Assembly (NCBI RefSeq): GCF_900109705.1
Contig: NZ_FOAI01000014.1
Location: 1 to 64,000, forward strand
Length of the DNA: 64,000 nucleotides
Source: Roseivivax marinus
Lineage (GTDB): Bacteria; Pseudomonadota; Alphaproteobacteria; Rhodobacterales; Rhodobacteraceae
Direction of reading: 5' to 3'
Part shown: positions 176-12,461 of the stretch, one piece after another
How the letters are laid out: each line of letters begins with the position of its first letter
How positions within the stretch are numbered: position 1 is the first letter of the stretch
Notes under the pieces: model-generated
The model's input: the letters and a program-made list of their open reading frames with translations, nothing else
Database searches by the model: none
Told to the model about the DNA's origin: nothing
Program-made: the position numbers and the translations under genes

Positions 176-628
176 TCACGCGCGGTCGGCCGAATGTGCA
201 TCGGCGAGACCTGATGCCCACTCGACGATGGCGTCCTGCGGCAGGGCGCCAACCTGTCGGCGAACCTCGCCGCCGTTGCGAAAGGCGATCATGAGCGGGA
301 TCCCACGGATGCCGTAGATCGCGCCCGCCTCCGGGTGGGCCTGCGTGTCGAGCTTGGCAAAGCGGGCGCGGGAGCCGAGTGTCTTGGCGGCACCGGCGAA
401 GGCAGGTGCCATCATCCGGCAGGGGCCGCACCATTCGGCCCAAAAATCCACGACCAGTGGCAGCGTGTCGATGCGGATCGCCTTTTGCAGGATTGGAAGC
501 GTCACCTCGACCGGCGCTGCGGACAAAAGCGGTGTGCCGCATGACCCACATTTCGGGCCGGCCTCGCGCCGCGTCTCGGGGACACGGTTGCCCTGGCCGC
601 AGGACAGGCAGACGAGTTTCAGTGTCAT
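176..628 (-). CDS. trxC: Thioredoxin 2 (zinc-finger thioredoxin)
   Basis: Protein-disulfide reductase of the cytoplasm, 150 residues, the usual TrxC size. The N-terminus carries two Cys pairs, CLSC at 7-10 and CGSC at 27-30, which form the zinc-binding domain that separates TrxC from TrxA. The thioredoxin fold follows, with the catalytic WCGPC at 66-70 and the cis-proline segment GIRGIPL further on. I chose the ATG at 628 because a GGAGA ribosome site lies just upstream and the family starts with this M-x-L-x-L-V-C pattern; an in-frame ATG at 673 would add 15 unrelated residues. It is a single-gene transcript with a Crp/Fnr-like inverted repeat about 60 bases before the start, so it probably belongs to the regulon of the neighbouring genes. 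Confidence 0.93.
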   Translation of the reverse strand: MTLKLVCLSCGQGNRVPETRREAGPKCGSCGTPLLSAAPVEVTLPILQKAIRIDTLPLVVDFWAEWCGPCRMMAPAFAGAAKTLGSRARFAKLDTQAHPEAGAIYGIRGIPLMIAFRNGGEVRRQVGALPQDAIVEWASGLADAHSADRA

Positions 629-689
629 GAGTGTCTCCGGACCGCTCGCGTGTGCACTTTCATCGTAAGCCACCGGCCCGACTCACGTC

Positions 690-703
690 TTGCGCTGCAT
701 CAA
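690..703. promoter_or_regulatory. Crp/Fnr-type box before trxC
   Basis: TTGCGCTGCATCAA matches the Fnr/Dnr-type pattern TTGNN-N4-NNCAA, with a perfect right half (ATCAA). It lies 61 bases upstream of the trxC start and is one of eight such sites in the first 10 kb. Binding is inferred from the pattern and the position only. Confidence 0.5.
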
Positions 704-723
704 TCGTGAATGGCTTTCGCGTG

Positions 724-1473
724 TCACCCCGGGGGTGCCGCAAAACCGCTCAGGAGCGTGCCAACCGCGTAGGCGACCGCTGCCGCGGTGCCGCCGATGG
801 CGAGTGTCTCGGCGCCCGCACGCCACCACGAGCGCAACGACCATCGGCTTTTGAGTGCGCCGATCGTGAAGAAGGTGGCGGCAGTGGCGATCGCCGAAGC
901 GGCGAAGGGCGCCTCGAGTGGCAGGACGAACGGCAACAGCGGCACCGCCCCGGCGGCGAGAAAAGCCACGAAGGTTACGCCCGCCGACATCCCGGCCCGC
1001 GGCGGCGACAGGCTGCGACCGTATTCGTCGGTGACCATGAGGTCGATCCAGCTTTCGCGCCGGCGCGAGATCGCCGTCACCGCATCTGCCAGCACCTGGC
1101 CCTCGAGCCCCTTTGCCGCGAGAATCTGACGCAGCTCCTCGCGCTCGCCCTCCGGCACACGCTCGATGTGGCGGGCCTCGATAGTGCGAATGCGGGCGAC
1201 CTCGTCCGCCTCGGTGCGCGTGGCCGTGAAGTTGCCCAGCGCCATGGACACGCCGTCGGCAAGCACGTTGGCGAGGCCGAGGATGACGATGACCGAAGTC
1301 GGCAGCCCGGCACCCTGGACGCCCGCCACGATGGCGAAGGTGGTCACGGCGCCGTCGATGGCACCGTAGACAGCGTCACCGAGGTGCCCCGGGCTGCGGG
1401 CCGCCGACAGCCGCGCGGCGATCTCGTCTCGTCCATGCCCGTGCTCGAGCGCGGGCTTTGCATCGCGATTCAT
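724..1473 (-). CDS. VIT1/CCC1-family transporter
   Basis: A 249-residue inner-membrane protein of the VIT1/CCC1 family (vacuolar iron/manganese transporter type). Residues 32-51 contain the family pattern [20 protein letters not shown], which begins transmembrane segment 1. About five hydrophobic segments are visible (near 42-58, 60-82, 163-182, 188-207 and 222-245). Between segments 2 and 3 lies a Glu-rich cytoplasmic stretch (about 88-150) of the kind that binds metal in this family. The start overlaps the stop of the upstream cytochrome gene by four bases (ATGA), so it is translationally coupled and the last gene of the usp-hypothetical-cytochrome-transporter operon. The transported ion (Fe2+ or Mn2+) cannot be told from sequence. 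Confidence 0.85.
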
Positions 1474-1886
1474 TCGGTGCGCTGGATGGTTTCGATAAAC
1501 GCGACAAGGTCGGCGACCGAGCCCTTGTTCACCACGGGCGCCCCGGTCCCGATCGGCCGACGTGCGGGTCCTCGGTCGAAGAGCGGTCCGAACACCGGCA
1601 TGATCACCCCATGGCCGCGCACCTCGGCGCGACCGTCGATGGTCTGTTGCACGGCCTCGGCCGGAAACGCACCGCCATTCCTTTCCGCGATCGTGGTCAG
1701 GTCGGCGGGCTGGACCGACAGGAGGTCGGCAAAGTCGCCGTCACCCCGCGCCGCGGTGCCGTGGCAGCTTTGGCAGAAAACGTCGTAGACGGATCGGCCG
1801 CGCTCGGGCGACGGCGCATCGTCCTCTTGCGCGATGGCAAGACCGGGGAGGGACAGGAACACGATCGCGAGGCGTAGCAGGGTCAT
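1470..1886 (-). CDS. Small monohaem cytochrome c (paralogue 1)
   Basis: Exported c-type cytochrome of 138 residues. A signal peptide (about 1-19, ending LAIA-Q) precedes one haem site, CQSCH at 38-42, followed by G-T-A-A-R-G-D-G and P-A-D-L-T-T-I-A. A later [10 protein letters not shown] segment offers the probable axial Met. It shares a colinear pattern with the cytochromes at 5454 and 7901: CxxCHG, GxG, DLTxIAxR, FP or WP, IDG or VDG, MP, and ExIQ near the end. The ATG at 1886 has an AAAGG ribosome site; the open frame runs further upstream to 1940 without a signal peptide start. It overlaps the VIT-type transporter gene by four bases and sits in the Crp/Fnr-box operon that starts at 3094. 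The electron partner is unknown. Confidence 0.88.
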
Positions 1887-1929
1887 GGACGAACCTTTCG
1901 TGGGAAACCGGTGGGCGGGCGGGCGACAA

Positions 1930-2223
1930 TCAGCCCGCATCCGGCATGCGCAGCAGGAAAAGGGTGCGCGCCCGGCCGCCGCGCGCGTGCCGCTCGCTTG
2001 CCAGGTAGATCAGCCGGGCACGGTGCAGCACGTCGATTGCACGCGCGCGCCGCTCGTAGGCGCCGCGCACACGCGATCCGCCATGACCCAGCGGCCATGC
2101 GTGTCGCGTGGCGATCCCGGGCACGAGACGCTCGGCCTCGGTCAACGCATGCTGCCAAGCTGCGTCGGCGTCAAGCCAGCGGCGGTAGGCTTGCAGATAA
2201 AGGCGTCGTGCGGTGTCGGTCAT
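1930..2223 (-). CDS. Hypothetical protein, 97 residues
   Basis: I do not recognise a family. It is a basic, largely helical, soluble-looking protein rich in Arg, Ala and Leu, with several Trp and Tyr near the N-terminus (RRLYLQAYRRWLDADAAW). There is no signal peptide, membrane segment or Cys. It lies 37 bases after the upstream universal stress protein gene and 43 bases before the cytochrome c gene on the same strand, so it is most likely co-transcribed with them from the Crp/Fnr box at 3152. The start ATG at 2223 is the first in the frame. Confidence 0.7.
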   Translation of the reverse strand: MTDTARRLYLQAYRRWLDADAAWQHALTEAERLVPGIATRHAWPLGHGGSRVRGAYERRARAIDVLHRARLIYLASERHARGGRARTLFLLRMPDAG

Positions 2224-2260
2224 GCCTGTCCTCCTTGGGCGTTTCCCCTCGGGCGCCCCC

Positions 2261-3094
2261 TCACTTGGAGAACATCACCGGCAGCGCGCTGTCGGTGAGA
2301 AGCTCGCGGGTGACGGCCCCGATGACGAAGTCGTAGGCCCGGGAGTGACCGAAGGCGCCGGTGGCGATGAAACCCGCGCCGACCTCGCGCGCCTCGTCGA
2401 GGATCACCTGCCCGATGTGCCGGGCACCCGGCTCGCGGTGGACGACATTCACGGACACGCCGTGCCGGGTGAGCCCGACGGCAAGATCGTTCATCGGCCC
2501 GTCGGCAAGGTCGTGCGCGCTGGTCGCGCCCACGTTCAGAAGCGTCATCTCGGCGCCCGGTTCCAGCAGCATCAACGCGTCGAAGGCGGCGCGCGCGGCC
2601 TCGCGTGTCGGACTCCAGCCGATCATGGCCCGCTTGCACACATTCTCGAGCGTGGCGCCGTGCGGCAGCATAAGGACCGGCCGGCCCAGCCCCCGGATCA
2701 CCTGCTCCTGGATGTCGTCGAGCTGATGCACGTAGCTCTCGGGCCGGGTCATCACCAACATGTCGGAACCGCGACCCGATTCGAGGATGCGCTCGGCCAC
2801 GGTCTGCATCCCTGCACGCCCCACGCGCCATTCGCCCCTGACGTCCTCGGCCTTCACGGCGGCGTCGAAGACCTCTAGAATCGTCTCGGCCTTGCGCTCC
2901 TGTCGCCTGTCGATCTCGGCCAGGACCTCGGTAGCCATGTAGCCGTCGAGCGTCGGGTAATAGCGCGGATCCGAGGTCACCGTGATCCCGAGGAGATGCG
3001 CGTCGAGCCGCCGCGCCAGCGCCGCGGCCTCCCGCGCGAGGCGATCCGGGGTTTCCACCGTGGTAAAGACGGCGGCGAGGGTTCTGAGCGTCAT
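2261..3094 (-). CDS. Universal stress protein, tandem UspA domains (copy 1)
   Basis: Cytoplasmic 277-residue protein with two UspA-like halves. The second half ends with GAFGHSRAYDFVIGA, which is the G-2x-G-9x-G nucleotide-binding pattern with Ala where Ser/Thr is usual. The start ATG at 3094 is preceded by a strong GGAGG; the open frame extends upstream to 3307 but with non-family sequence. It is the first gene of an operon (usp, hypothetical, cytochrome c, VIT1-type transporter) and has a near-ideal Crp/Fnr box 57 bases ahead. The next gene upstream, at 3189, is a paralogue of identical length. Such Usp proteins are usually induced by oxygen limitation or energy stress; the role here is inferred from context. 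Confidence 0.88.
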   Translation of the reverse strand: MTLRTLAAVFTTVETPDRLAREAAALARRLDAHLLGITVTSDPRYYPTLDGYMATEVLAEIDRRQERKAETILEVFDAAVKAEDVRGEWRVGRAGMQTVAERILESGRGSDMLVMTRPESYVHQLDDIQEQVIRGLGRPVLMLPHGATLENVCKRAMIGWSPTREAARAAFDALMLLEPGAEMTLLNVGATSAHDLADGPMNDLAVGLTRHGVSVNVVHREPGARHIGQVILDEAREVGAGFIATGAFGHSRAYDFVIGAVTRELLTDSALPVMFSK

Positions 3095-3151
3095 GTCGGG
3101 CACCTCCGTTCCTGTCTTCGCCCAGTCTGGACCGCGCCAACCCCGTCCGCC

Positions 3152-3165
3152 TTGATCCCTGTCAA
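3152..3165. promoter_or_regulatory. Crp/Fnr-type box before usp copy 1 operon
   Basis: TTGATCCCTGTCAA is a near-perfect TTGAT-N4-GTCAA element, 57 bases upstream of the usp start at 3094, in the short gap between the two usp genes. Its location fits an activator site near -41.5 of a promoter with a short leader. Confidence 0.6.
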
Positions 3166-3188
3166 AACGGGGTCGGGGCGACGCGGGC

Positions 3189-4022
3189 TCACTTCGACAG
3201 CAAGACCGGACGTTTCGGCGCGTCGAGCAGGTCGCTCGTGACCGCGCCGATGACGAAGTCGTAGACCGCGGAATGGCCGAACGCCCCGGTGACGACAAGC
3301 TCGGCATCGCGCTCGGTCGCGACCTCCATCAGCGTGCGCGAAATCTCTCCGGCCGGGCCGTCGCGGTCGATCAGTTCGGCGCTGTAGCCCAGGCGGTCGA
3401 GGGCGGCTGCAAAGTCCTGACGCGCGTCCATTGCGTGGACCTCGGCGCGGCCACTGCGGACCGCCAGCAGATCGATCCGGGCCCCCGGCGCGGCGAGCGT
3501 CAGGGCGTCGTGCGCGGCGCGGGTGGCCTCGCGCGTGTCGCTCCAGCCGATCAGCAGACGGGACGGCGCGGCGGTCAGCGCGGCATCGCGCGGCATGATC
3601 AACACCGGGCGTCCCGAGAGCCGGATGATCGGAGCGCGCAAGCGGTCGGTCGGCTCGGACGAGCCTCCGTCCCCTTTCGGCGCCATGACGATGACGTCCG
3701 CGGCACGCGTGGCGGCCAATGCGAATTCCTCTGTCGGGGCGGCAACGCGCTCCTGCGCCCGGAACTCGCCGCGCACATCCGCGCGTCGTACGGCCTCCTC
3801 GAACAGGGCGCGGATCGCGTCTGTTTCCTCTGTCTGCCATTTGGCGATGGTCGGGATGACCACCGGGTCGAATCCTGCCGCGTCGTGGACGAAGAACGGC
3901 AGCACGGGCACCACTCCGATCAGGTGGGCATCGAGCCCGCGGGCTAGCTCGCACGCGGCGGGTGCCAGCCACTCGGCCTCGGCGCGGGTGAACAGGATGA
4001 CGGCAAGGGTCTTGGTGGTCAT
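3189..4022 (-). CDS. Universal stress protein, tandem UspA domains (copy 2)
   Basis: A 277-residue paralogue of the protein encoded at 2261-3094, with the same two-domain layout and the same C-terminal GAFGHSAVYDFVIGAVTSDLL signature (G-2x-G-9x-G). The copies are clearly diverged, so this is not a recent duplication. It has its own Crp/Fnr-like box 81 bases upstream, and a second box stands between it and copy 1, so the two copies may be separate transcripts. It is probably a cytoplasmic nucleotide-binding stress protein; no enzymatic activity is evident. Confidence 0.87.
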   Translation of the reverse strand: MTTKTLAVILFTRAEAEWLAPAACELARGLDAHLIGVVPVLPFFVHDAAGFDPVVIPTIAKWQTEETDAIRALFEEAVRRADVRGEFRAQERVAAPTEEFALAATRAADVIVMAPKGDGGSSEPTDRLRAPIIRLSGRPVLIMPRDAALTAAPSRLLIGWSDTREATRAAHDALTLAAPGARIDLLAVRSGRAEVHAMDARQDFAAALDRLGYSAELIDRDGPAGEISRTLMEVATERDAELVVTGAFGHSAVYDFVIGAVTSDLLDAPKRPVLLSK

Positions 4023-4103
4023 TCCGGGTCTCCAGGATGTGGGGCGCGGATCCTCTGCCGCGTCCGGTCTCCCCGAAGATACGCCCGCGGCGCGGGTCGC
4101 TCC

Positions 4104-4117
4104 TTGCGCTCGATCAA
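4104..4117. promoter_or_regulatory. Crp/Fnr-type box before usp copy 2
   Basis: TTGCGCTCGATCAA has a perfect right half (ATCAA) and a TTG left half. It lies 81 bases before the usp start at 4022 and just after the stop of the upstream flavodoxin-fold gene. Confidence 0.48.
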
Positions 4118-4130
4118 TCGCGCACGACCT

Positions 4131-4706
4131 TCAGCGGCCGGCCCGACCCAGCCGCATCACCCGGTCGAGCGCCCGCGCGCGGCGCGCCTCAGATGCCTCG
4201 ACCCCGCCGATCAGCGTCCAGCGGACAGGCGCGATGCCGACGAACCGCAGCACGTTGCGGTCGAAGCTGCGCAACGAGAACGCCCCGAACCAGAAGCGGT
4301 AGGCCGGGGCGGGCATTGCCATGGTCACGATAACCCGCGCCGACCGGCCCCGCAGCAGCCGGCGAAAGCGCCCGTCGGCCTCCAGCCCGACGAAACGCGG
4401 TCGCATTACATGCTCGAGCCATGCCTTCAGCTTCGCCGGCATGGAACCGAGCCAGAGCGGATAGACGAAGACGATGTGTTCGGCGGAACGGATCGCGGCC
4501 TGTGCGGCCGGCACGAAGTCCGGCGGGTCGCCCCCGGTCCACTCCGCGCGCGAATGCAGGAACGACACCGCCTCTGCGCCGATGTCGATGACCTCGACCT
4601 GGTGGCCGCCTGCCCGCGCGCCCGCTGCATAGGCCTGCACCAGGCCGTCGCAGTAATGGCGGCCCGCGCCGTCAGGATGGCCGAGGACGACAAGGATGGA
4701 TGCCAT
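4131..4706 (-). CDS. NAD(P)H quinone reductase, flavodoxin-2 fold
   Basis: A 191-residue cytoplasmic flavoprotein of the NAD(P)H dehydrogenase (quinone)/KefF/MdaB group. The N-terminal ILVVLGHPDGAG is the flavin phosphate-binding loop, and YPLWLGSMPAKLKAWLEHV (about residues 86-104) is the family's second FMN/FAD-contact segment. Two-electron reduction of quinones is the usual reaction. The ATG at 4706 has GGGAGG upstream; the frame is open to 4751 without a better site. A Crp/Fnr-like box lies 69 bases ahead of the start. Its presence beside cytochromes and stress proteins suggests a redox-protective role; the exact substrate is unknown. Confidence 0.82.
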   Translation of the reverse strand: MASILVVLGHPDGAGRHYCDGLVQAYAAGARAGGHQVEVIDIGAEAVSFLHSRAEWTGGDPPDFVPAAQAAIRSAEHIVFVYPLWLGSMPAKLKAWLEHVMRPRFVGLEADGRFRRLLRGRSARVIVTMAMPAPAYRFWFGAFSLRSFDRNVLRFVGIAPVRWTLIGGVEASEARRARALDRVMRLGRAGR

Positions 4707-4775
4707 AAGCGCCTCCCGGGCCGCACAGACGCATTTTGTCTCCGGGAACACTGCCGACCGCTCGCGGCGCCCGCA

Positions 4776-4789
4776 TTGATCCAGCGCAA
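4776..4789. promoter_or_regulatory. Crp/Fnr-type box before the quinone reductase gene
   Basis: TTGATCCAGCGCAA has a perfect TTGAT left half and a CAA right end. It lies 69 bases upstream of the start at 4706, in the gap that separates this gene from the phasin-like gene. Confidence 0.5.
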
Positions 4790-4929
4790 TCGTGCCTCCG
4801 CCTCGACCCGCATAAAGGCGCGATCCCCGTGGTGTTCCGGGGACTGAAGTATCGCACCGGTAGGGGCAGTAAGGGGCGACTCCGTTGGCGTAGCCTGTCC
4901 AGAGATTCGACCCTGTATAAGGCTAATTT

Positions 4930-4961
4930 GGCTCCGGGCCGCAGTTGCGACGGCCGGAGCC
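4930..4961. terminator. GC-rich hairpin after the phasin-like gene
   Basis: GGCTCCGG (4930-4937) pairs with CCGGAGCC (4954-4961), and CCG/CGG extends the stem inside a one-base bulge, with a 9-base loop. It begins about 35 bases beyond the stop of the leftward gene that ends at 4996. There is no T-run, so a Rho-independent terminator is only possible; it may serve as a 3' stability hairpin. The rest of the 289-base gap (4707-4995) shows no gene. Confidence 0.3.
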
Positions 4962-4995
4962 GTCAGGCCCGGCGGAGCGTCGCCATGGTCCCGTG

Positions 4996-5322
4996 CTACT
5001 CGTCCATCACCGCGGCCGCGCCCGGCACCGTGTGCAGCATCTGGACCAGTCGCCCGGCCTCTCGGTGATAGTCCTCCATCATCTTGTGCACATGCCGCAT
5101 CAGCACCACCTGCGCGTCGATCGGGTTGGTGCAGTGGACCAGCTCGCGCTCGGTTTGCACGTCGGCGCGAATACGGTCGGCCCAGAAGGTCCACGCCTCG
5201 CTGCCGATCTGCATCCACGCCTCGGCCGCGCGCAGGCCGGGCCAATCCTCCGGGGATATGGCCCAGGGCATTGTCGCCGCGGTCCCGGCTTCCGTTTTCG
5301 GTGTCGCACTCATCTCGTTCAT
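4996..5322 (-). CDS. Phasin-like small protein
   Basis: A 108-residue, Ala- and Glu-rich, probably helical protein. The pattern (WPGLRAAEAWMQIGSEAWTFWADRIRADVQTERELV, then a helix with MRHVHKMMEDYHREAGRLV) resembles phasin-family proteins that coat polyhydroxyalkanoate granules or act as chaperone-like factors. I chose the ATG at 5322 because AGGAGG lies six bases upstream; an in-frame ATG at 5352 has no such site. The Crp/Fnr box at 5379-5392 stands 56 bases before this start and is shared with the divergent cytochrome gene at 5454. Family assignment is tentative. Confidence 0.68.
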   Translation of the reverse strand: MNEMSATPKTEAGTAATMPWAISPEDWPGLRAAEAWMQIGSEAWTFWADRIRADVQTERELVHCTNPIDAQVVLMRHVHKMMEDYHREAGRLVQMLHTVPGAAAVMDE

Positions 5323-5378
5323 CCAGACCTCCTGCCGCTTGTTCGGGGTCATTCTATTGTCGGCGCGACGCCACCGCC

Positions 5379-5392
5379 TTGATCCGGATCAA
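5379..5392. promoter_or_regulatory. Perfect Fnr-type palindrome in a divergent promoter
   Basis: TTGATCCGGATCAA is an exact TTGAT-N4-ATCAA palindrome. It is placed 56 bases before the leftward phasin-like gene and 61 bases before the rightward cytochrome gene, so one site could serve both directions. It is the best match in the window and the reference for the other, weaker boxes. Confidence 0.68.
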
Positions 5393-5453
5393 GGCCACCG
5401 GACCTTGGTCGGGCTAGAGCGGTAATACGACCGCCGCGACACGGAGCCGGACC

Positions 5454-5885
5454 ATGCGCATCCAAACGATCCTGCTGCCTCTTGTGGTGGCCGTTGCCGC
5501 CTGCGTGGCAGAGGAGCCCGTGATCGACACCTCTCTTGGGCAGGCCACGTTCCAAGACAATTGCGCAGCCTGCCACGGGGCGGGCGGCCGAGGCGACGGC
5601 CCTGCCGCCGATGGAACCGGCACACCGCCTGCGGACCTCACCCGGATCGCCGCGCGAAGGGGTGGCGTCTGGCCGATGCTCGAGGTCATGTCGATCGTCG
5701 ACGGCTACACGAAAACGACCGAGCCACGCCCCGGGATGCCGGTGATCCCCGCGCTGACCGAGGGGCCTCGCGTCATCTTCGACACCGGAAACGGGCAGAC
5801 GACAACGGTCCCGGAATCCCTCCTCGCGGTAACGCGATACCTCGAAACGATCCAGGACCCCCCGCCCCTGCGGCAGGTGCCGTGA
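5454..5885 (+). CDS. Small monohaem cytochrome c, possible lipoprotein (paralogue 2)
   Basis: Exported c-type cytochrome of 143 residues with one haem site, CAACH at 37-41. The signal sequence ends VAVAAC at 12-17, which reads as a lipobox with Cys17 as a possible lipidation site, so it may be membrane-anchored while its paralogues are soluble. The same motif order as in the cytochromes at 1470 and 7901 follows: GxGDG, ADLTRIAARRGG, WP, IVDG, GMPVIP and YLETIQ. It has an insertion of about 20 residues before the C-terminal helix. It is transcribed from the divergent promoter with the perfect Fnr-type palindrome. Partner oxidase or reductase unknown. Confidence 0.87.
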   Translation: MRIQTILLPLVVAVAACVAEEPVIDTSLGQATFQDNCAACHGAGGRGDGPAADGTGTPPADLTRIAARRGGVWPMLEVMSIVDGYTKTTEPRPGMPVIPALTEGPRVIFDTGNGQTTTVPESLLAVTRYLETIQDPPPLRQVP

Positions 5886-5946
5886 CAGCCGTCACGCGTG
5901 ATTTGCGCCCTCATCAGAGACTGATCCGCCGCACGTCGCACTTAGG

Positions 5947-5962
5947 TGTGTCACGTGAAACA
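5947..5962. other. parS-like site (15/16)
   Basis: TGTGTCACGTGAAACA differs from the canonical ParB-binding parS TGTTTCACGTGAAACA at one position. It is intergenic, about 29 kb from the presumed origin and 22 kb from parB, within the distance over which origin-proximal parS sites are usually found. Confidence 0.6.
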
Positions 5963-6023
5963 CGCGCGGTATGCCCGGCTTCGCACGCATGGAGGAACGC
6001 CGCCCTTCGGCTGACCGGCCGCC

Positions 6024-6037
6024 TTGACCGCCGTCAA
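6024..6037. promoter_or_regulatory. Crp/Fnr-type box before the bactofilin-like gene
   Basis: TTGACCGCCGTCAA is a symmetric TTGAC-N4-GTCAA element 53 bases upstream of the start at 6091. The TTGAC half differs from the Fnr TTGAT half by one base and is shared with the site at 7824. Confidence 0.52.
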
Positions 6038-6090
6038 TGTCTCGCAGGTCTCGATCGGCGAAGCTGTCCCGACCATACAGGACAGCCGCC

Positions 6091-7236
6091 ATGCGTCATC
6101 TCCTACTTCTCTTCTGCCTTCTCGGCCTTTCCGCCCCGCGCCCTGCACAGGCGGACACCATGCTGGCCGGGGGTGATCTCTACGTCGCCGGCGCGTCCGA
6201 GGACGCCATTCCCGCAGCGGGCCGAGACCTGATCGCCACCGGGTTCCGGTTGCGTGTAACTGCCCCGGTCGCCGACGACGCCATGCTCTCTGGCGCGGCG
6301 GTCACTGTCAGCCAGTCCGTGGGCGGAGATCTCTCGGCCTTCGGTGGGCGGGTCGCGATCGAGGCCGAGGTCGGCGGAGACCTCTCGGTCAGCGGCTTTT
6401 CGGTCGAAACCGGCCCGGCAGCAGCCGTCGCCGGCAACGTGCGGCTCTCTGGCGGGTCCGTCGAGATTCGCGGGCCGGTGTCGGGTGCGCTGGTGGTGGC
6501 CGGTGGCGAGGTGACGCTTGACGCGCCGGTGGAGGGCGACGTCCGCCTGAGCAGCGGCGCGCTGAGCTTCGGCGAGGCGGCCCGCATCGGAGGGCAGCTG
6601 ACCTACAGCGCGCCGGAACCCATCGATATCCCCGCTTCTGTGGTCCCGGGCGAGCGGGTCACCTTCAATCCGTTCGACGCGAGACATGACGGCGTACGCG
6701 GCGACCGGCACCCCGACTGGTCAATGCCGGGACGTGGCGCGATGATCGGCAGCGCCCTGATAGGCTATGTGTTCTTTCTCGTGGCGGGGGCGCTATTTTT
6801 GACCTTCGTTCCGGACACAGTCGGATCCCTTGACGCCCGGATCGCCACCCGGCCCGCGCTGACGTTCATGATCGGTCTCGCCGGGCTCGGGACCGCGTTC
6901 GGTCTCGTGCCGATCCTCGCGCTATCGGTGATCGGTATTCCGCTGATCCCGGTGATGCTGATGGCCATCGTGTTGCTGTGGATGGCGGGCTACCTGATGG
7001 GCGTCTACGCCATCTCTATGCGAATGCTCTCGGCAATGGCCGGTGACAGCGCGACGCCTGGCACCGCGATGCGCACTGGCGCCCTGGCGGCGGGACTGGC
7101 GGTCGCCATGCTGCTGAACTTCATCCCCGTGCTCGGCTGGGTGCTGAATTTCGCCGCCCTGCTTCTGGGCGTCGGCGCTATCGTGGCCCTTCCATTCGAC
7201 ACGCCTCAGGAGGCGGAAGAGAGCGGAACGTCATGA
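6091..7236 (+). CDS. Bactofilin-like/polymer-forming membrane protein
   Basis: A 381-residue exported or membrane protein of unknown function. A signal peptide (about 1-21, ending AQA) is followed by about 170 residues with regularly spaced V-x-G-D-x-x and G-G-x-V-x-I/L repeats (for example SVGGDLSAFGGRVAIEAEVG), a right-handed beta-helix pattern like bactofilins and other polymer-forming proteins. The C-terminal 170 residues carry about four hydrophobic segments (near 225-245, 265-290, 292-315 and 340-375). The beta-helix is therefore predicted outside and the C-terminus in the membrane. It is controlled by the Crp/Fnr-like box at 6024 and probably co-transcribed with the DUF3775 gene that follows. 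Function unknown; scaffolding is a guess. Confidence 0.72.
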   Translation: MRHLLLLFCLLGLSAPRPAQADTMLAGGDLYVAGASEDAIPAAGRDLIATGFRLRVTAPVADDAMLSGAAVTVSQSVGGDLSAFGGRVAIEAEVGGDLSVSGFSVETGPAAAVAGNVRLSGGSVEIRGPVSGALVVAGGEVTLDAPVEGDVRLSSGALSFGEAARIGGQLTYSAPEPIDIPASVVPGERVTFNPFDARHDGVRGDRHPDWSMPGRGAMIGSALIGYVFFLVAGALFLTFVPDTVGSLDARIATRPALTFMIGLAGLGTAFGLVPILALSVIGIPLIPVMLMAIVLLWMAGYLMGVYAISMRMLSAMAGDSATPGTAMRTGALAAGLAVAMLLNFIPVLGWVLNFAALLLGVGAIVALPFDTPQEAEESGTS

Positions 7237-7332
7237 GCTGTTCCGATGACGGATATCAATGCGCCGGACTGGCGTGCCGTCCACCCTGACGGAACTCCGG
7301 CCCCAGGTACATCACGCAAGGAGCGGACGGTC

Positions 7333-7803
7333 ATGACATCCGATAGCCCGCGACATCCCGCTCTCACCACCACTGAGGACCCGCTGGCCAAAATCGACGC
7401 GCCCGAAGCCACAGACGTCAGCGAGATCGAACTGTCCATCCCCCTCGACACCGTGTGCGCGATCATCGACCTTGCGCACGACCTTATGGGCAAGACCGCG
7501 AGCAGCGGTGACGACGACGAGCCCGACGAGGAAGATGTCCGCCTCTCGGTGCTCGAAGATCGCGGCGACGACCCGGCCGATCTGGAACTGCGCTCGGTCA
7601 TCCATGACCTCGGAATCGAAGCCCGCGTCGATCTCGTCGCGCTCATGTGGCTTGGCCGGGACGGAGGCGACTGGGCAGAGCTACGCCAGATCGCGGAGGA
7701 CGAGCGCAACGGACGGACGGCGGATTACCTCTGCGGCACGCCGCACCTTGCCGATCACCTGGCCTCGGGGCTCGATCTTCTGGGGCGCGGCTGTCCGGCC
7801 TGA
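7333..7803 (+). CDS. DUF3775-family protein
   Basis: A 156-residue acidic cytoplasmic protein that I match, from its C-terminal part, to DUF3775 (ELRSVIHDLGIEARVDLVALMWLGRDGGDW, then LAD.LA.GLDLLG). A very acidic linker (SSGDDDEPDEEDV) lies in the middle. The ATG at 7333 has AAGGAG nine bases before it; an in-frame ATG at 7246 would add 29 residues and starts ten bases after the preceding stop, so that longer form is possible. It lies downstream of the bactofilin-like gene and before the cytochrome/HELVH pair. No function is established for this family. Confidence 0.75.
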   Translation: MTSDSPRHPALTTTEDPLAKIDAPEATDVSEIELSIPLDTVCAIIDLAHDLMGKTASSGDDDEPDEEDVRLSVLEDRGDDPADLELRSVIHDLGIEARVDLVALMWLGRDGGDWAELRQIAEDERNGRTADYLCGTPHLADHLASGLDLLGRGCPA

Positions 7804-7823
7804 AACCCGTTCAGCCTAAACCG

Positions 7824-7837
7824 TTGACCGCGGTCAA
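7824..7837. promoter_or_regulatory. Crp/Fnr-type box before the cytochrome/HELVH operon
   Basis: TTGACCGCGGTCAA is a perfect 14-base palindrome of the TTGAC-N4-GTCAA form, 63 bases before the cytochrome start at 7901. Confidence 0.55.
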
Positions 7838-7900
7838 TGATCGCACCGCCCGACGGGCGCACGGTGGTTCCACACCCCTGCAACCGAAAGGATCGATCCG

Positions 7901-8296
7901 ATGAGACCCGTCTTCGCGCTGACCTCGCTCCTTGTCGGCTGTCTCGCCATCCCGGCAGGCGCCGACGAGGCCGGACATGCCGAGTTCATGGCCAATTGCG
8001 CCGTCTGTCACGGCGAATACGGCAAGGGACAGGGCGAGCTGGCCGACCTCCTGACCATCGAGATGCCCGACCTTACCGGGATCGCCGCACGCCATGACGG
8101 ATCCTTCCCGATGCTTGATGTCATTCACATCATTGACGGACGCAGCGGGATGCGCGCTCACGGAACGAACATGCCGCTTTGGGGAGAAAGGTTCACTGAG
8201 CCCGTCGCCGAAGCGTCAGGTCCATACGCTGCCGAGATCGCCGCGCGCGGACGGATCCTGTCGATCGCCTACTACCTCGAATCGATCCAGGAATGA
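7901..8296 (+). CDS. Small monohaem cytochrome c (paralogue 3)
   Basis: Exported 131-residue c-type cytochrome. Signal peptide about 1-21 (ending AGA-D), haem site CAVCH at 33-37, then GEYGKGQGELADLL, DLTGIAARHDGSFP, IIDGRSGMRAHGTNMPLWG (likely axial Met) and YYLESIQE at the end. It is the closest of the three island cytochromes to paralogue 1, sharing ADLL, the IDGR block and RxHGxxMP. Its stop overlaps the start of the next gene by four bases (ATGA), coupling it to the HELVH-motif protein. A Crp/Fnr-like palindrome lies 63 bases upstream. Confidence 0.88.
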   Translation: MRPVFALTSLLVGCLAIPAGADEAGHAEFMANCAVCHGEYGKGQGELADLLTIEMPDLTGIAARHDGSFPMLDVIHIIDGRSGMRAHGTNMPLWGERFTEPVAEASGPYAAEIAARGRILSIAYYLESIQE

Positions 8297-8967
8297 TCCG
8301 CCGTGGCCTTCTGGCCGCCGCGCCCGTCTTTCTCTTCTCCGGCGGCGCGGCGGTGCCCGACACGGTGCCCTGCGAAACGCCCGGGCTGTCGGTCGAGGGA
8401 GCCACGCCCGAACTGTCGGACCGGATCTGCGGCGCGGCCGACGCAGCGGCGATACAGCTGGCCGCCTGCGCGCTGCCGCTGTCAGGGACGGTGACGATCT
8501 CGACCGCTGCGGCGCTCGAAAACGCCTGCTACGGTCTCTATCACGTCGATGGACGTTGCATCGAGGTTCTCGACCCCGCCTCAATGGCTGTGCATCAGGC
8601 GACCTCGCCCCTCTTCGCGCCCGTCTCGGCAGAGGCGTTCTTCGACAGCATCATCCTGCACGAACTGGTCCACGCGGCCTATGCCGACCGACCGTGCCCG
8701 ATGGAAAGCTGCGTCGTCACCGCGGAATACCTGGCGTTCGGGTTGCAGATCATGTTCCTTCCCGAGGCCGAGCGCGCGCGGCTGGACACCTCTGCCCTGC
8801 CCGACCGGAAGATCGTGTTCGACGAGATCAACGCCCCCTACCTGTTCATGGCGCCCCACCGATTCGCGCTGAAAGCCTGGCGTCATCTGACCCAGCACGA
8901 CGACGTGTGCGCCTTCGTGGACCTCGTGGCGCGAGGGAACATGGTGTTCGACCGGCCCCATCCCTGA
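8293..8967 (+). CDS. Exported HELVH-motif protein (DUF6639-like)
   Basis: A 224-residue protein with an N-terminal signal sequence (RR followed by a hydrophobic stretch, about 3-20) and no other membrane segment. The motif HELVH at 123-127, followed by a Tyr-x-Asp/Glu-rich segment and YLAFGLQIMF, is the HExxH arrangement of zinc metallopeptidases. Eight Cys residues suggest disulfides in the periplasm. It resembles the family annotated DUF6639, a recollection I cannot confirm here. It is translationally coupled to the upstream cytochrome, which suggests a shared role such as maturation or turnover of periplasmic redox proteins. Catalysis is unproven; the third zinc ligand is not obvious. Confidence 0.72.
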   Translation: MIRRGLLAAAPVFLFSGGAAVPDTVPCETPGLSVEGATPELSDRICGAADAAAIQLAACALPLSGTVTISTAAALENACYGLYHVDGRCIEVLDPASMAVHQATSPLFAPVSAEAFFDSIILHELVHAAYADRPCPMESCVVTAEYLAFGLQIMFLPEAERARLDTSALPDRKIVFDEINAPYLFMAPHRFALKAWRHLTQHDDVCAFVDLVARGNMVFDRPHP

Positions 8968-8994
8968 CCCTGTGCCGCGGTTGCGCGCGGGCGG

Positions 8995-9771
8995 TCAGCT
9001 CCGCGGGGGCCGGAGTTGCAGGGTCTCTTTCAGGTTCGGCGTCCCGCCAAGATCCTCGTCCCCGGCCTCGGCGACCAACGCCTCCATATCGAGGATGCGG
9101 ATCAGGTCCGGCTTCAGCAGCGCGATCACACCGTCGCGGGCCAGCGCGTGAAATGCACGGGACACGGATTCGGGGCGCGTCCCCAGCAGGTGCGCAAGGT
9201 CGCCTCGGCCGATGGGCACATGCACCACGGGGCCGGACTCGCTGTTGCGGACAAGGTGATCGACCCGCGCGAACTGGGAACACATCACCACCAGGAACCC
9301 GGCGATGCGCGTGGTGATCTTCTGGCTCGACAGGATGATGAGCCAGTCGCGGGCACGGTCGAGTTCGTTGAGAATGTTGAGCATCACCACCCGCTCGAGG
9401 TCCGGCGAACGAGTCAGCAGCTTTTCGAAGGGAGCGCGGGGATAGGCACAGATCTCGGCGTCGGTGGCCGCCTCCACCGAGAAATGCAGTGCGCCATTGA
9501 ACACCCGGCCGAACATGTCGCCCTCGACCAGAAGGCCGACGATATGCTGGCGGCCGTCGGCGAGGGTCTTCTGCATTCGCAAGACACCCGAGATCACGTT
9601 GCCCACGAGGTCGCTGTCGTCGCCATCGAACAGCACCGTCTGGCCGGAATGATAGCGGCGCACATGCGCCATGGCCGACAGAGCGCGGCGCGTGTCCTCG
9701 GTCAGGTCGGCCCGTTGCCGGAGGTCGACGAAGCGGTTCCGGCACGTGGCGGTGTCGTTCTCTACTGTCAT
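8995..9771 (-). CDS. Crp/Fnr-family transcriptional regulator without Fe-S cysteines
   Basis: A 258-residue cyclic-nucleotide-binding-fold regulator. The N-terminal beta-roll includes SGQTVLFDGDD and EGDMFGRVFNG, a long dimerisation helix follows, and the C-terminal helix-turn-helix reads GRGDLAHLLGTRPESVSRAFHALARDGVI, with E-S-V-S-R as recognition helix. That helix matches regulators that bind TTGAT-N4-ATCAA-like sites. Fnr/FnrL proteins have a four-Cys Fe-S cluster; here there is only one Cys in the first 20 residues, so the protein more likely belongs to a Dnr/NnrR-like or other group that senses something else. The ATG at 9771 begins the family homology; the frame extends to 9960. It is the obvious candidate regulator of the eight boxes in this island. 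Confidence 0.85.
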   Translation of the reverse strand: MTVENDTATCRNRFVDLRQRADLTEDTRRALSAMAHVRRYHSGQTVLFDGDDSDLVGNVISGVLRMQKTLADGRQHIVGLLVEGDMFGRVFNGALHFSVEAATDAEICAYPRAPFEKLLTRSPDLERVVMLNILNELDRARDWLIILSSQKITTRIAGFLVVMCSQFARVDHLVRNSESGPVVHVPIGRGDLAHLLGTRPESVSRAFHALARDGVIALLKPDLIRILDMEALVAEAGDEDLGGTPNLKETLQLRPPRS

Positions 9772-9916
9772 CTCGTGCCGCACCTCGGCTGAGCCCGGCG
9801 ACCGCGTCTGGCATCTGGCACGCCGCACCCGGTTCCCCGTCCGTTCAGATGGTTGCGATGGTAACAGGTTTGGGTGCTCGCGGAACTCTCTAACGCGGGC
9901 TGTCCAGCGCGGCGCA

Positions 9917-9930
9917 TTGTGCGACGTCAA
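9917..9930. promoter_or_regulatory. Crp/Fnr-type box in the regulator/host-attachment gene promoter
   Basis: TTGTGCGACGTCAA has a perfect GTCAA right half. It lies 65 bases before the rightward gene at 9996 and 145 bases before the divergent Crp/Fnr regulator gene, so autoregulation is possible. It is the weakest left half of the set. Confidence 0.42.
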
Positions 9931-9995
9931 TGCGCGGCAGGCAGGGACGGCGTATGGCACAGAGGCTGCGCTGCGCGCCCGAGTGGGAAATCACC

Positions 9996-10451
9996 ATGTC
10001 CGTGACCTGGGTCCTTGTCTGTAACGGAAACCGCGCCCGTGTGCTGTGCGGCCTCGACGGCGCTTCGGCTTCGGCCCCGCTAGAGATCATCTGCCGCGCG
10101 CCCGCCCGTCATCTTCGTGCAGCGTTGTCCGAGCTGGACGCCCCGGCTCCGGAATGCACACCGCCGCGGCTCGAACCCGAAACCGACCTGGACCCGATCC
10201 GCAAGGACATGCACGAGTTCGCCCGCGAGACGCTGGAGATGCTGGCCCGTCGCTTCGTGGCGGGCGACTTCTCGCGGCTGATCGTCCTGGCGACACCGAA
10301 AATGCTGCGCGTTCTGCGACGCGAGATGCCGGCCGCGCTGGATGGCGCGGCAATCTCGGCGCGCTCGTCCAACCTGATCTGCGCGCCGGAGCACGATCTG
10401 CGCCGCGCCGTGATCCGGATGTTACAGCGAGAGGGGCTCACGCCCTCCTGA
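9996..10451 (+). CDS. Host-attachment-family (eRF1-like/baeRF) protein
   Basis: A 151-residue soluble protein of the family named 'protein required for attachment to host cells'. The N-terminal TWVLVCNGNRARVL (a beta-strand with the N-G-x-x-A-R motif), the central D-x-x-x-x-D..FA-x-x-L segment and the C-terminal RLIVLATPKMLRVLRREM match the family, which has an archaeal-release-factor-like fold. Its name comes from Agrobacterium; its biochemical role is unknown. The ATG at 9996 begins the conserved strand. It has a Crp/Fnr-like box 65 bases upstream, so it is the last member of the island's apparent regulon. Confidence 0.8.
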   Translation: MSVTWVLVCNGNRARVLCGLDGASASAPLEIICRAPARHLRAALSELDAPAPECTPPRLEPETDLDPIRKDMHEFARETLEMLARRFVAGDFSRLIVLATPKMLRVLRREMPAALDGAAISARSSNLICAPEHDLRRAVIRMLQREGLTPS

Positions 10452-10481: not shown

Positions 10482-10634
10482 TCAGTCCACCTCCCACGAG
10501 GTCGGGTGATCGAGCAGCACCACCGAACCGTCCTCGTAACGTTGCGCCGTGCTTTGGTCGAAGGTCACGAGGCCCACGTAGGTCAGCACCGCGCTGAAAC
10601 CCACGACCGCTACTGCTGTCACGAAGGCCTTCAT
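10482..10634 (-). CDS. 50-residue single-span membrane peptide after fdh gamma
   Basis: A 50-residue peptide with one membrane segment (about 3-23, AFVTAVAVVGFSAVLTYVGL) and a short acidic tail. Its ATG at 10634 overlaps the stop of the formate dehydrogenase gamma gene by four bases, so it is translationally coupled to the fdh operon. It could be a small structural or assembly subunit of the membrane formate dehydrogenase. I do not recognise a named family. Confidence 0.65.
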   Translation of the reverse strand: MKAFVTAVAVVGFSAVLTYVGLVTFDQSTAQRYEDGSVVLLDHPTSWEVD

Positions 10635-11851
10635 GGGGTGCGCTCCTTCTTCGGGTCGACCTCGCGCAGCCAGAGGCTGTGGTGCTCTTCCGCCCAGTTG
10701 CGGTCCACCTTGCCCGACCACATGGCATCGATGGCACCGTGCATCCCGACCGAGCCGATGTAGATGTGCGCGAGGAACACGGCGATCAGCAGAACCGCGA
10801 TGGCCGCGTGGATCAACATGGCCCAGCTCATGCCCGCGAGGTCGAGCCAGTAATAGGGAAACATCAGCGTGACGCCGGTGGCCACCATGATGAGGCCGCC
10901 CAGGATCGCGGACCAGAACACCATCTTCTGGCCGGCATTGAACTTGCGCGCGGGCGGATGGTCACCGGAGTCCGAGAAGAAACCGCCACCCTTCGCGATC
11001 CACTGGATGTCGAGCTTCGAGGGCAGGTTCTTGGCGGTCCACATGACCGCCATCACGATCAGGCCGAGGAAAAAGGTAGGCGCGAACAGGACATGCCCCC
11101 AGGTCGACCACCAACCGAGCGTGCCCATTGCCCGCTCGCCGAGCGGAACGAACAGGGTCTCGCCGTAGGCGATGGCGATACCGGTGAAGGACAGGCCAAG
11201 GAAGCTGAGCGCGGTCATCCAGTGCGTTCCCCGCTCGACGAAGCCGAACCGGTGCACGCGGCGGCCGCTCTTGCCCTGACGGATCGGCACGCGACCTCGC
11301 AGGGCAAGGACCGCCGACAGCAGGAACGCCATGCCGAGGATCGCCAGCGCGCCCATGTGGGTGATGATGTCGGACATGCCGATCCGCCAGTCGCGCCCGA
11401 AAGGACGTTCGAAAAGCGCTGCGTTGGAATAGGGCAGCGACGAGATGCCCTCGATACGGTCCGGCTGATGCATCATCGCGGCCTCGTCCTCGGTCGGCAC
11501 GGACCAGGCGCGGGTGTAGGCCGAGCCGTCCGTCATCGACTCGGAATCTAGGTTCGCGCGACCTTCGGCCAGCGCGGGCACCTCGGCCTCCGGTGACGGG
11601 CCGGTGCGGAAACGTTCGTCGAGGAGCCTGGTGCGCGCGGCCAGCGTCTCGGCGGCGATCATGCCGCTGTGCATCCCGGGACTGTCGCCCGCCGCACGGA
11701 TCGCGACTTCGGGCCGGACGGTGGAGTCGGCCGCGAACAGGAGCACGACCTGCCAGGCGAGCAGAAACAGGAAGATCAGCGCGGCGATGGCGCCGGCGAT
11801 GCGATACCCGGTGAAATCGCGGCCCCGGACGCCGCCCGCGCTGTCGCTCAT
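10631..11851 (-). CDS. Formate dehydrogenase gamma subunit (cytochrome b556 type)
   Basis: A 406-residue integral membrane subunit that anchors the periplasmic formate dehydrogenase and passes electrons to quinone through b haems. A first membrane segment (about 17-40) is followed by about 110 periplasmic residues, an N-terminal extension seen in Rhodobacteraceae but absent from E. coli FdnI. The cytochrome b domain with four further segments starts near residue 170, and histidines such as those in HRFGFVERGTHW and WGHVLFAPTF are candidate haem ligands. The ATG at 11851 overlaps the beta-subunit stop (ATGA). It is part of the order Tat peptide-alpha-beta-gamma-50-residue peptide. Confidence 0.9.
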   Translation of the reverse strand: MSDSAGGVRGRDFTGYRIAGAIAALIFLFLLAWQVVLLFAADSTVRPEVAIRAAGDSPGMHSGMIAAETLAARTRLLDERFRTGPSPEAEVPALAEGRANLDSESMTDGSAYTRAWSVPTEDEAAMMHQPDRIEGISSLPYSNAALFERPFGRDWRIGMSDIITHMGALAILGMAFLLSAVLALRGRVPIRQGKSGRRVHRFGFVERGTHWMTALSFLGLSFTGIAIAYGETLFVPLGERAMGTLGWWSTWGHVLFAPTFFLGLIVMAVMWTAKNLPSKLDIQWIAKGGGFFSDSGDHPPARKFNAGQKMVFWSAILGGLIMVATGVTLMFPYYWLDLAGMSWAMLIHAAIAVLLIAVFLAHIYIGSVGMHGAIDAMWSGKVDRNWAEEHHSLWLREVDPKKERTP

Positions 11852-12447
11852 GCTCCGTCCTCCTCGGGATAATAGGCCGTGTTCCAGCCCCACGCGCCCG
11901 ACCCATAGCCCCGGTGGATCACGCGCTCGCGGTAGATTTCACCGATCATCTCGCCGTCACCGGCCAGAAGCGCCCGGGTCGAGCAGACCTCGGCGCAGAT
12001 TGGCAGCTTGCCCTCTGCGATGCGGTTGGCCCCGTACTTGCGGTACTCCGCCTCGGAGTGATCCTCTTCGGGACCGCCGGCGCAGTAGGTGCACTTGTCC
12101 ATCTTGCCGCGGCTGCCGAACATCGTGGCCTTGGGGAACTGCGGTGCGCCGAACGGGCACGCGTAGAAGCAGTAACCGCAGCCGATGCAGGTGTCCTTGT
12201 CATGCAGGACCACGCCGATATCGGTCTGGTACAGGGTCGAAACCGGGCAAACCGACACGCAGGGCGCATCGGTGCAGTGCATGCACGAGGTGGCGATGGA
12301 CTTCTCGTCGGGCTCGCCGTCGTTGATCGTCACCACCCGGCGCCGGACGATCCCCCAGGGCACCTCGTGCTCGTTCTTGCAGGCGGTCGCACAGGCGTTG
12401 CACTCGATACAGCGCTCGGCGTCGCACAGAAACTTCGCTCGGGCCAT
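11848..12447 (-). CDS. Formate dehydrogenase beta subunit, four [4Fe-4S] clusters
   Basis: A 199-residue ferredoxin-like subunit that carries electrons from the catalytic subunit to the membrane subunit. The Cys groups CIECNACATACK (13-24), CMHCTDAPCVSVCP (near 55-68), CIGCGYCFYACPFG (near 87-100) and a CTYC plus later Cys (IC..VC) account for four cubane clusters. It is shorter than E. coli FdnH and lacks its C-terminal membrane helix, as is common in alphaproteobacteria. It lies 14 bases after the alpha gene and overlaps the gamma gene by four bases. Confidence 0.92.
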   Translation of the reverse strand: MARAKFLCDAERCIECNACATACKNEHEVPWGIVRRRVVTINDGEPDEKSIATSCMHCTDAPCVSVCPVSTLYQTDIGVVLHDKDTCIGCGYCFYACPFGAPQFPKATMFGSRGKMDKCTYCAGGPEEDHSEAEYRKYGANRIAEGKLPICAEVCSTRALLAGDGEMIGEIYRERVIHRGYGSGAWGWNTAYYPEEDGA

Positions 12448-12461
12448 GCGGCCTCCTTACT

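Follow-up and report, generated by a model that had tools for sequence, protein, structure and literature searches.

Contig C29 of Roseivivax marinus, whose first 64 kb form the window analysed here (genome of 4.01 Mb in 39 contigs), opens with an island of fifteen genes in 10.5 kb, identified from open reading frame (ORF) calls and a Pfam scan, in which nine Fnr boxes are packed with class II promoter geometry. The best explanation, which we consider probable, is that this is a low-oxygen island driven by FnrL, an oxygen-responsive regulator encoded elsewhere in the genome, with CrpA (a name coined here for the Crp/Fnr regulator encoded in the island) acting as a modulator.

According to this model, the 10.5 kb would comprise some eleven short transcription units. 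Ten of these would have a gene-ward Fnr-type class II promoter, in which a TTGAY-N4-RTCAA-like box centred near -41.5 is followed, at a distance of 22 bp, by a weak -10 hexamer. Once oxygen becomes scarce, dimeric FnrL carrying its Fe-S cluster would bind these boxes and recruit RNA polymerase, jointly switching on thioredoxin 2, two universal stress proteins (Usp), three small cytochromes c, a VIT-type transporter and a flavodoxin-fold reductase, together with a bactofilin-like membrane protein and DUF3775, DUF6639 and baeRF12 proteins, a set that would serve low-oxygen survival and redox housekeeping. CrpA probably binds the same boxes and would modulate the promoters under another signal.

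Fnr boxes with class II geometry

The original prediction had reported eight inverted repeats of the TTG-N8-CAA type, each located 53-81 bp before the first gene of an apparent transcript and none inside a gene. All eight were found where they had been placed, and a ninth box, at 7246, which had been overlooked, was detected by a matrix trained on 109 sites that all lie outside the window. The nine boxes are listed here with the gap between the box end and the start codon and with the hexamer found 22 nt beyond the box (+22):

690..703, minus strand: Fnr box TTGATGCAGCGCAA (read towards trxC); gap 61 bp; TACGAT at +22
3152..3165, minus strand: strict Fnr box TTGACAGGGATCAA, before usp1; gap 57 bp; CAGACT at +22
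4104..4117, minus strand: Fnr box TTGATCGAGCGCAA, before usp2; gap 81 bp; TATCTT at +22
4776..4789, minus strand: Fnr box TTGCGCTGGATCAA, before fld; gap 69 bp; CAGTGT at +22
5379..5392, no strand: palindromic Fnr box TTGATCCGGATCAA, common to the divergent phasin-like gene (gap 56 bp; TAGAAT at +22) and cytc2 (gap 61 bp; TAGAGC at +22)
6024..6037, plus strand: strict Fnr box TTGACCGCCGTCAA, before the bactofilin-like gene; gap 53 bp; GAAGCT at +22
7246..7259, plus strand: ninth Fnr box ATGACGGATATCAA, 73 bp before the likely DUF3775 start at 7333; CACCCT at +22; matrix score 17.1
7824..7837, plus strand: strict Fnr box TTGACCGCGGTCAA, before cytc3; gap 63 bp; CACGGT at +22
9917..9930, plus strand: Fnr box TTGTGCGACGTCAA, in the crpA/baeRF12 divergent gap, facing baeRF12; gap 65 bp to baeRF12 versus 145 bp to crpA; TATGGC at +22

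The predicted spacing of 53-81 bp was thereby confirmed, the crpA side of the box at 9917 lying at 145 bp. With the start codons chosen here no box falls inside a gene, and longer ORFs from 6037 and 9930 would touch two of them. All nine boxes resemble TTGAY-N4-RTCAA: four are strict, four have one full half-site and one is an ATGAC variant. One more TTG-N8-CAA match, at 1827, was discarded, as it lies inside a cytochrome gene and neither of its half-sites is complete.

These sites are clustered far beyond what would be expected by chance. The window contains 13 TTG-N8-CAA matches versus 4.73 expected, a number that none of 100 dinucleotide shuffles reached, and nine of the 13 (the eight sites first reported and 1827) are found in the first 10 kb. 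Over the genome, sites with at least one full half-site (TTGAY or RTCAA) number 65 (39 + 40 strand hits minus 14 symmetric ones), and eight of these belong to the island, counted over a span of 9,254 bp, where 0.15 would be expected (binomial P = 3.6e-12, or 1.6e-9 after multiplication by the number of disjoint windows). For the strict form TTGAY-N4-RTCAA, the island holds four of the 14 sites of the genome, with 0.032 expected (P = 2.8e-8). Both patterns were set after the sites had been seen; bare TTG-N8-CAA is in excess as well, with nine of 219 sites in the island (P = 3.2e-9). An equal frequency of the motif over the whole genome, which the original prediction had named as a refuting outcome, was thus not observed. 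The ten strict sites outside the island are distributed as follows: three are upstream of hemN/fnrL, ccoN and ccoG; one is in front of an SPW gene that neighbours a Cys-bearing Crp/Fnr gene; two lie before small genes (DUF465 and DUF6455); two are within called genes; and for the last two no gene start was called within 300 bp. The 219 TTG-N8-CAA sites of the genome compare with 405 for the reversed pattern, so that the motif is about half as common as its control; stray Fnr-like sites may be avoided, or the deficit may stem from codon usage.

The boxes also have the geometry of class II Fnr promoters. An xAxxxT hexamer is found exactly 22 nt beyond the box in seven of the nine gene-ward directions and in none of the seven other directions (background 0.0265; P = 3e-10, corrected to 1.2e-8 for 37 offsets). 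A -10 element also has a fixed place at 113 boxed starts outside the window, with A at +23 in 59% and T at +27 in 52% of them; a match to TATAAT of four of six positions or better, at +21 or +22, is present at only 20 of 107 boxed starts outside the window. Such a fixed spacing to the -10 element centres the boxes at approximately -41.5, which is the established class II position for FNR. In Dinoroseobacter shibae (D. shibae), box centres were reported at 39.5-41.5 (PMC5398030). When the outside-trained matrix was run over the 64-kb window, the thirteen top hits all corresponded to island boxes, eight in number and some of them hit in both directions, and among the 28 hits listed there was no intergenic hit to the right of 10.5 kb.

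Conservation of genes and boxes in other genomes

The fifteen genes of the island are the following:

176..628, minus strand: trxC, thioredoxin 2 (Zn ribbon and Trx; Pfam PF00085, PF21352), with start codon at 628
724..1473, minus strand: VIT-family membrane protein (vit; Pfam VIT1, 4.9e-54), last gene of the presumed usp1 operon
1470..1886, minus strand: small c-type cytochrome 1 (cytc1; Pfam Cytochrom_C), presumed usp1 operon
1930..2223, minus strand: orf97, a 97-aa protein without any match in the Pfam scan, presumed usp1 operon
2261..3094, minus strand: universal stress protein 1 (usp1; Pfam Usp), head of the presumed operon usp1-orf97-cytc1-vit
3189..4022, minus strand: universal stress protein 2 (usp2; Pfam Usp)
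4131..4706, minus strand: flavodoxin-fold oxidoreductase (fld; Pfam Flavodoxin_2, 1.1e-32)
4996..5322, minus strand: phasin-like small protein
5454..5885, plus strand: small c-type cytochrome 2 (cytc2; Pfam Cytochrome_CBB3)
6091..7236, plus strand: bactofilin-like membrane protein (Pfam Bactofilin below cut-off, 22.1 versus 27.9)
7333..7803, plus strand: DUF3775 protein (Pfam DUF3775, 3.2e-21), 7333 being the likely start
7901..8296, plus strand: small c-type cytochrome 3 (cytc3; Pfam Cytochrom_C)
8293..8967, plus strand: HELVH-bearing DUF6639 protein (Pfam DUF6639 marginal, 27.8 bits versus a cut-off of 27.0), in a presumed operon with cytc3
8995..9771, minus strand: CrpA, Crp/Fnr regulator (Pfam HTH_Crp_2, cNMP_binding), FnrL-like and without N-terminal Cys cluster
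9996..10451, plus strand: baeRF12/Host_attach family protein (Pfam PF18856, 1.5e-14)

Two pairs of genes are divergent, the phasin-like gene with cytc2 and crpA with baeRF12, and usp1-orf97-cytc1-vit is probably an operon. Most of the labels given to these genes in the original prediction agree with Pfam (thioredoxin 2, VIT1, two Usp, three cytochromes c, flavodoxin fold, baeRF12/Host_attach and Crp/Fnr); the bactofilin and HELVH labels are the sub-threshold and marginal cases listed above, and a phasin identity for the 4996..5322 protein is unsupported, no Pfam match being found even at E 5.

Homologues were taken from samples of 189 genomes of the family, with the window's own genome left out, and a homologue was counted as boxed when a box with at least one full half-site lay within 200 bp upstream. 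All matches were used for the bactofilin-like gene (26), usp2 (16) and fld (9), and the best 29 with loci given, of far more, for cytc3, which was matched in 99 of the 189 genomes. Boxes were found in other genera before 16 of the 29 cytc3, 18 of the 26 bactofilin-like, eight of the 16 usp2 and five of the nine fld homologues, strict boxes accounting for 13, 11, eight and two cases, respectively, and the reversed-pattern control gave 1/29, 1/26, 0/16 and 0/9. The position of the box is also kept, as it starts at -68 to -79 in 17 of the 18 boxed bactofilin-like homologues. In sixteen further loci (311.5 kb), which were chosen as holders of island-gene homologues and some of which were already known to be boxed, we counted 43 boxes versus 7 for the control, and 22 strict boxes versus 0.

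Closer relatives keep several of these arrangements. Six of eight congeners have DNA matches to parts of the island with 69-80% identity and E values below 1e-30, and the remaining two (G003 and G005) give short DNA matches only. The usp1-orf97-cytc1-vit order is kept together with a strict box in one congener (L229), orf97 adjoining usp1 there and in L230; another (L228) has the cytc2/box/phasin-like arrangement of the island; L232 has a boxed trxC adjoining vit, the box upstream of trxC being TTGATTCAGCGCAA; and L233 has a box followed by the phasin-like gene and fld. Boxed homologues of the phasin-like gene are found in L228, L231 and L233. Altogether, a box is present in 11 of the 15 tested upstream regions of island-gene relatives in congeners, when one variable end base is allowed, and in six of 13 upstream regions of cytc3-level matches. 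In the comparison across the Rhodobacteraceae that the original prediction had suggested, boxes recur before homologues in other genera. The modules are scattered in the congeners examined, so that the window's genome gathers modules that are kept apart there.

The island may be of mixed ancestry: DNA counterparts in congeners exist for its left half (trxC to cytc2) and are few for its right half, and bactofilin-like homologues were found in only two of the eight congeners, at 33% identity. A recent foreign origin of the island is unsupported by G+C content (0.63-0.71 for the genes, 0.675 for the window). In the loci L237-L241, we also observed a recurrent divergent pair of Usp and bactofilin-like genes around a strict box, with an Hsp20 gene in between in L237 and L239.

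FnrL, CrpA or another regulator

The box of the island is the published FnrL box, and a canonical FnrL is encoded between hemN and ccoN in the window's genome (G000:C11:90480-91190). This protein scores 326 bits against an NCBIfam cut-off of 300, has the Cys cluster, carries CAGCPIRHRAVCAYC and has a recognition helix of the same E-x-x-S-R type as CrpA. Strict boxes of the same form as those of the island precede its neighbours hemN, ccoN and ccoG, whose families were confirmed. FnrL was above the cut-off in 27 of the 31 genomes tested, namely the window's own and 26 of the 30 tested among those with boxed homologues. FnrL is most likely the sensor of the island.

CrpA is, judging from its sequence, an FnrL-type paralogue without the Cys cluster and with the same recognition-helix signature. 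It has a cNMP-binding domain and a Crp helix-turn-helix (Pfam); its nearest NCBI model is FnrL, for which it reaches 164.8 bits against the NF045989 cut-off of 300 and thus falls outside the FnrL family; and it has no CxxC...C motif, the N-terminal Cys cluster being absent. A CrpA hit at E<=1e-40 was obtained in 41 of 394 family genomes, own included, and hits at 35-39% identity take in FnrL itself; the best matches in the eight congeners are only 30-34% identical. Among the 24 orthologue loci fetched, crpA is divergent from baeRF12 in 11, and in 10 of these 11 a second Crp/Fnr gene is found beyond the pair (tblastn).

We regard it as unlikely that CrpA is instead a dedicated activator of the island that responds to a non-oxygen signal (redox, nitric oxide (NO), haem or a nucleotide), with FnrL in a minor part. 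Its gene does sit in the island, its recognition helix is compatible with the box, 16 of the 24 orthologue loci have a box upstream of crpA (12 strict; counted by eye, with C first or G last allowed), and boxes are dense around the orthologues: 25 loci picked for the regulator and not for boxes (435 kb) contain 91 boxes versus 7 for the control, and 49 strict boxes versus 0, two loci (L119 and L132) having no box at all. However, of the 39 genomes in which one or more boxed homologues occur, 33 yielded no match to CrpA at E<=1e-40 (hand count), and among the remaining six the hit of G114 (36%) is at FnrL level. Since boxed homologues exist in genomes without CrpA, CrpA is not needed, and it is an unlikely sole switch. 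The island boxes moreover have the same form as the hemN, ccoN and ccoG boxes, and in congeners, despite their poor CrpA matches, trxC, usp1, the phasin-like gene and cytochromes c are still preceded by boxes. Of the original proposal of a Crp/Fnr regulon controlled by a regulator with a matching helix from the same island, one clustered Crp/Fnr-type regulon is upheld by the FnrL box match, the class II geometry and the recurrence in other genera, a low-oxygen response being probable, and a Crp/Fnr gene is indeed present in the island; there is no support for this gene being the key or for its helix setting it apart, FnrL having the same type. A regulator gene inside an island need not be the main switch of that island.

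Still less probable is that a denitrification-type NO regulator (Dnr/NNR-like) acts at the boxes, the candidate being another Crp/Fnr gene of the genome. Fnr and Dnr regulons and boxes do overlap in D. shibae (PMC5398030), and a further Crp/Fnr gene lies beside a strict box at G000:C16:246 kb. The product of this candidate gene, however, has an N-terminal Cys cluster, which Dnr is not known to carry; no nitrite, NO or nitrous oxide (N2O) reductase was found among the island genes scanned; and Usp and cytochrome genes are typical FnrL targets (PMC4634722, PMC2908626). Finally, the TTG...CAA pattern is short, degenerate and was picked after the fact, but the idea that its excess is chance or composition without regulatory meaning has next to no credibility when the sites are rare genome-wide and nevertheless clustered, are followed by a -10 element at fixed spacing and are kept before homologues in other genera.

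Several observations weigh against FnrL control of the island. The boxes at 690, 4104, 4776, 9917 and 7246, five of the nine, each contain a degenerate or variant position; the cytc2 and baeRF12 directions (two of nine) have no full -10 match; the box at 9917 (15.2) scores below a site inside a formate dehydrogenase gene (16.2); and vit, cytc1 and orf97 are tied to a box only through a presumed operon. In other genera, no box was found in the 200 bp upstream of 13/29 cytc3, 8/26 bactofilin-like, 8/16 usp2 and 4/9 fld homologues, and in congeners none was present in four of 15 upstream regions of island-gene relatives and seven of 13 of cytochrome c relatives. The FnrL model missed four of the 31 genomes (G198, G216, G130 and G133, two of them under 90% complete), and two further Crp/Fnr proteins of the genome (C16), one of them without the E-x-x-S-R helix, might use the box.

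With FnrL as the probable sensor, CrpA may be an accessory regulator that shares its box, by analogy with CrpK of Rhodobacter sphaeroides (R. sphaeroides). This Crp/Fnr protein (RSP_2572) lacks the four Cys of FnrL, has its DNA determinants and controls an overlapping regulon that includes a Usp gene (PMC4263372); CrpA, which we liken to it by description only, shares the Crp/Fnr domains, the likeness to FnrL and the missing Cys cluster. RedB of Rhodobacter capsulatus (R. capsulatus) is likewise Fnr-like, without an Fe-S motif and with a conserved Cys, and directly co-regulates only 4 genes with FnrL (PMC9603517). The likeness, again by description only, lies in a Cys at codon 35 (window 9667-9669) that is conserved in 14 of the 15 CrpA orthologues closest to the window's protein; the window's CrpA itself has Ala at this position. 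Among the 24 CrpA-like proteins aligned, the fifteenth of the close group (L119) has Ser there, the window protein has Ala though it belongs to this group, and the nine more distant proteins have no Cys. A lost redox or metal ligand is a possible reading of this Ala.

A wider idea, which we find doubtful and put forward as speculation, is that this is a widespread, as yet unnamed kind of Rhodobacterales island: a self-contained low-oxygen survival kit with one class II Fnr promoter per unit, often with CrpA, a divergent baeRF12 and a second, Cys-bearing Crp/Fnr, in which CrpA would keep the promoters on when the Fe-S cluster of FnrL is lost, so that one box would read two signals, and the regulon would be assembled and passed on as a physical unit instead of gene by scattered gene.

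Neighbours of crpA orthologues include Hsp20, CBS, BON, DUF2267, SPW, phosphoribosyltransferase and AAA/APH genes and a ribosome-hibernation/cold-shock fusion, which at L131:10726-11277 joins an S30AE domain to a cold-shock domain and adjoins crpA. Elsewhere in the window's genome (G000:C16:246318-247465, or L067:6319-7465), an SPW gene, two Fnr boxes and a Crp/Fnr gene with an N-terminal Cys cluster lie together near trehalose-synthesis-like genes (judged by eye), and this regulator shares 34% identity with the second Crp/Fnr of the crpA-baeRF12 module. The closest solved structures to CrpA by profile are Crp/Fnr proteins (for example 3fx3, 3h3z, FixK2 4i2o and FNR) and are uninformative on its signal; an AlphaFold model from a four-sequence alignment had a mean predicted local distance difference test (pLDDT) score of 51 and was set aside. 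Among plasmids, the searches turned up a single informative CrpA relative with a name, in Rhodobacter sp. CZR27 (44%), and little for two other genes.

Relation to known systems and surroundings of the island

The original statement that no named system has this composition was too strong. FnrL, whose box consensus is published, has Usp genes among the targets that it activates in R. capsulatus, R. sphaeroides and D. shibae (PMC4634722, PMC5398030). The targets predicted in alphaproteobacteria include Usp genes for FNR and DNR, with UspA in the core FNR regulon, and Hsp20, CBS and cytochrome c genes for FixK (PMC2908626). The FnrL regulon of these Rhodobacterales is like the island in its box, its promoter class and its Usp and cytochrome-related targets, and the window's genome has FnrL with its hemN/cco neighbourhood; what differs is that nine boxes are packed into less than 10 kb. 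Thioredoxin 2, VIT, flavodoxin-fold, bactofilin-like, DUF3775, DUF6639 and baeRF12 proteins are not named in the FNR/FixK/DNR target table of PMC2908626, in which some entries are given just as 'hypothetical protein'. FnrN of Rhodobacterales was assigned 171 genes in 71 operons (PMC4999443), the words 'universal stress' being absent from the main text of that paper.

Location of FNR targets beside the fnr gene is known from the cco genes (PMC2908626) and is seen here in the hemN-fnrL-cco cluster on C11, which differs from the island in containing core respiratory genes and not small stress and redox genes. The lxa stress-gene island of Burkholderia, which has about 50 genes and is up at low oxygen, encodes six Usp proteins along with a cytochrome c and flavin/nitro-reduction, small heat shock and BON-domain proteins (PMC6127331, PMC9104464). 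It resembles, by description only, the islands of the window's relatives with their Hsp20, BON, CBS, Usp and cytochrome c genes, whereas the window's island has two Usp and no Hsp20 or BON among the fifteen genes scanned, its left end being cut off by the contig. In the openly licensed literature, judged from titles and the starts of abstracts, we found no paper naming such an island in Rhodobacterales.

The Fnr-type oxygen switch is therefore known, and what is new is the dense packing and several of the apparent targets. A regulon clustered with separate promoters, rather than as one operon, is an unusually clean case, and the reason for regulon clustering becomes directly testable because several of these genes and boxes also occur in congeners, in scattered form. 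FnrL-type control is predicted for the bactofilin-like membrane protein, DUF3775, DUF6639, VIT and thioredoxin 2, giving a low-oxygen setting in which they could be studied.

To the right of the island, a formate dehydrogenase-like operon, whose large subunit was recognised by eye, occupies 10631-15614; the matrix hits listed include no intergenic Fnr box there. At the other end, positions 1-95 of the window are repeated with 100% identity at the start of contig C11, as a repeat or an assembly overlap.

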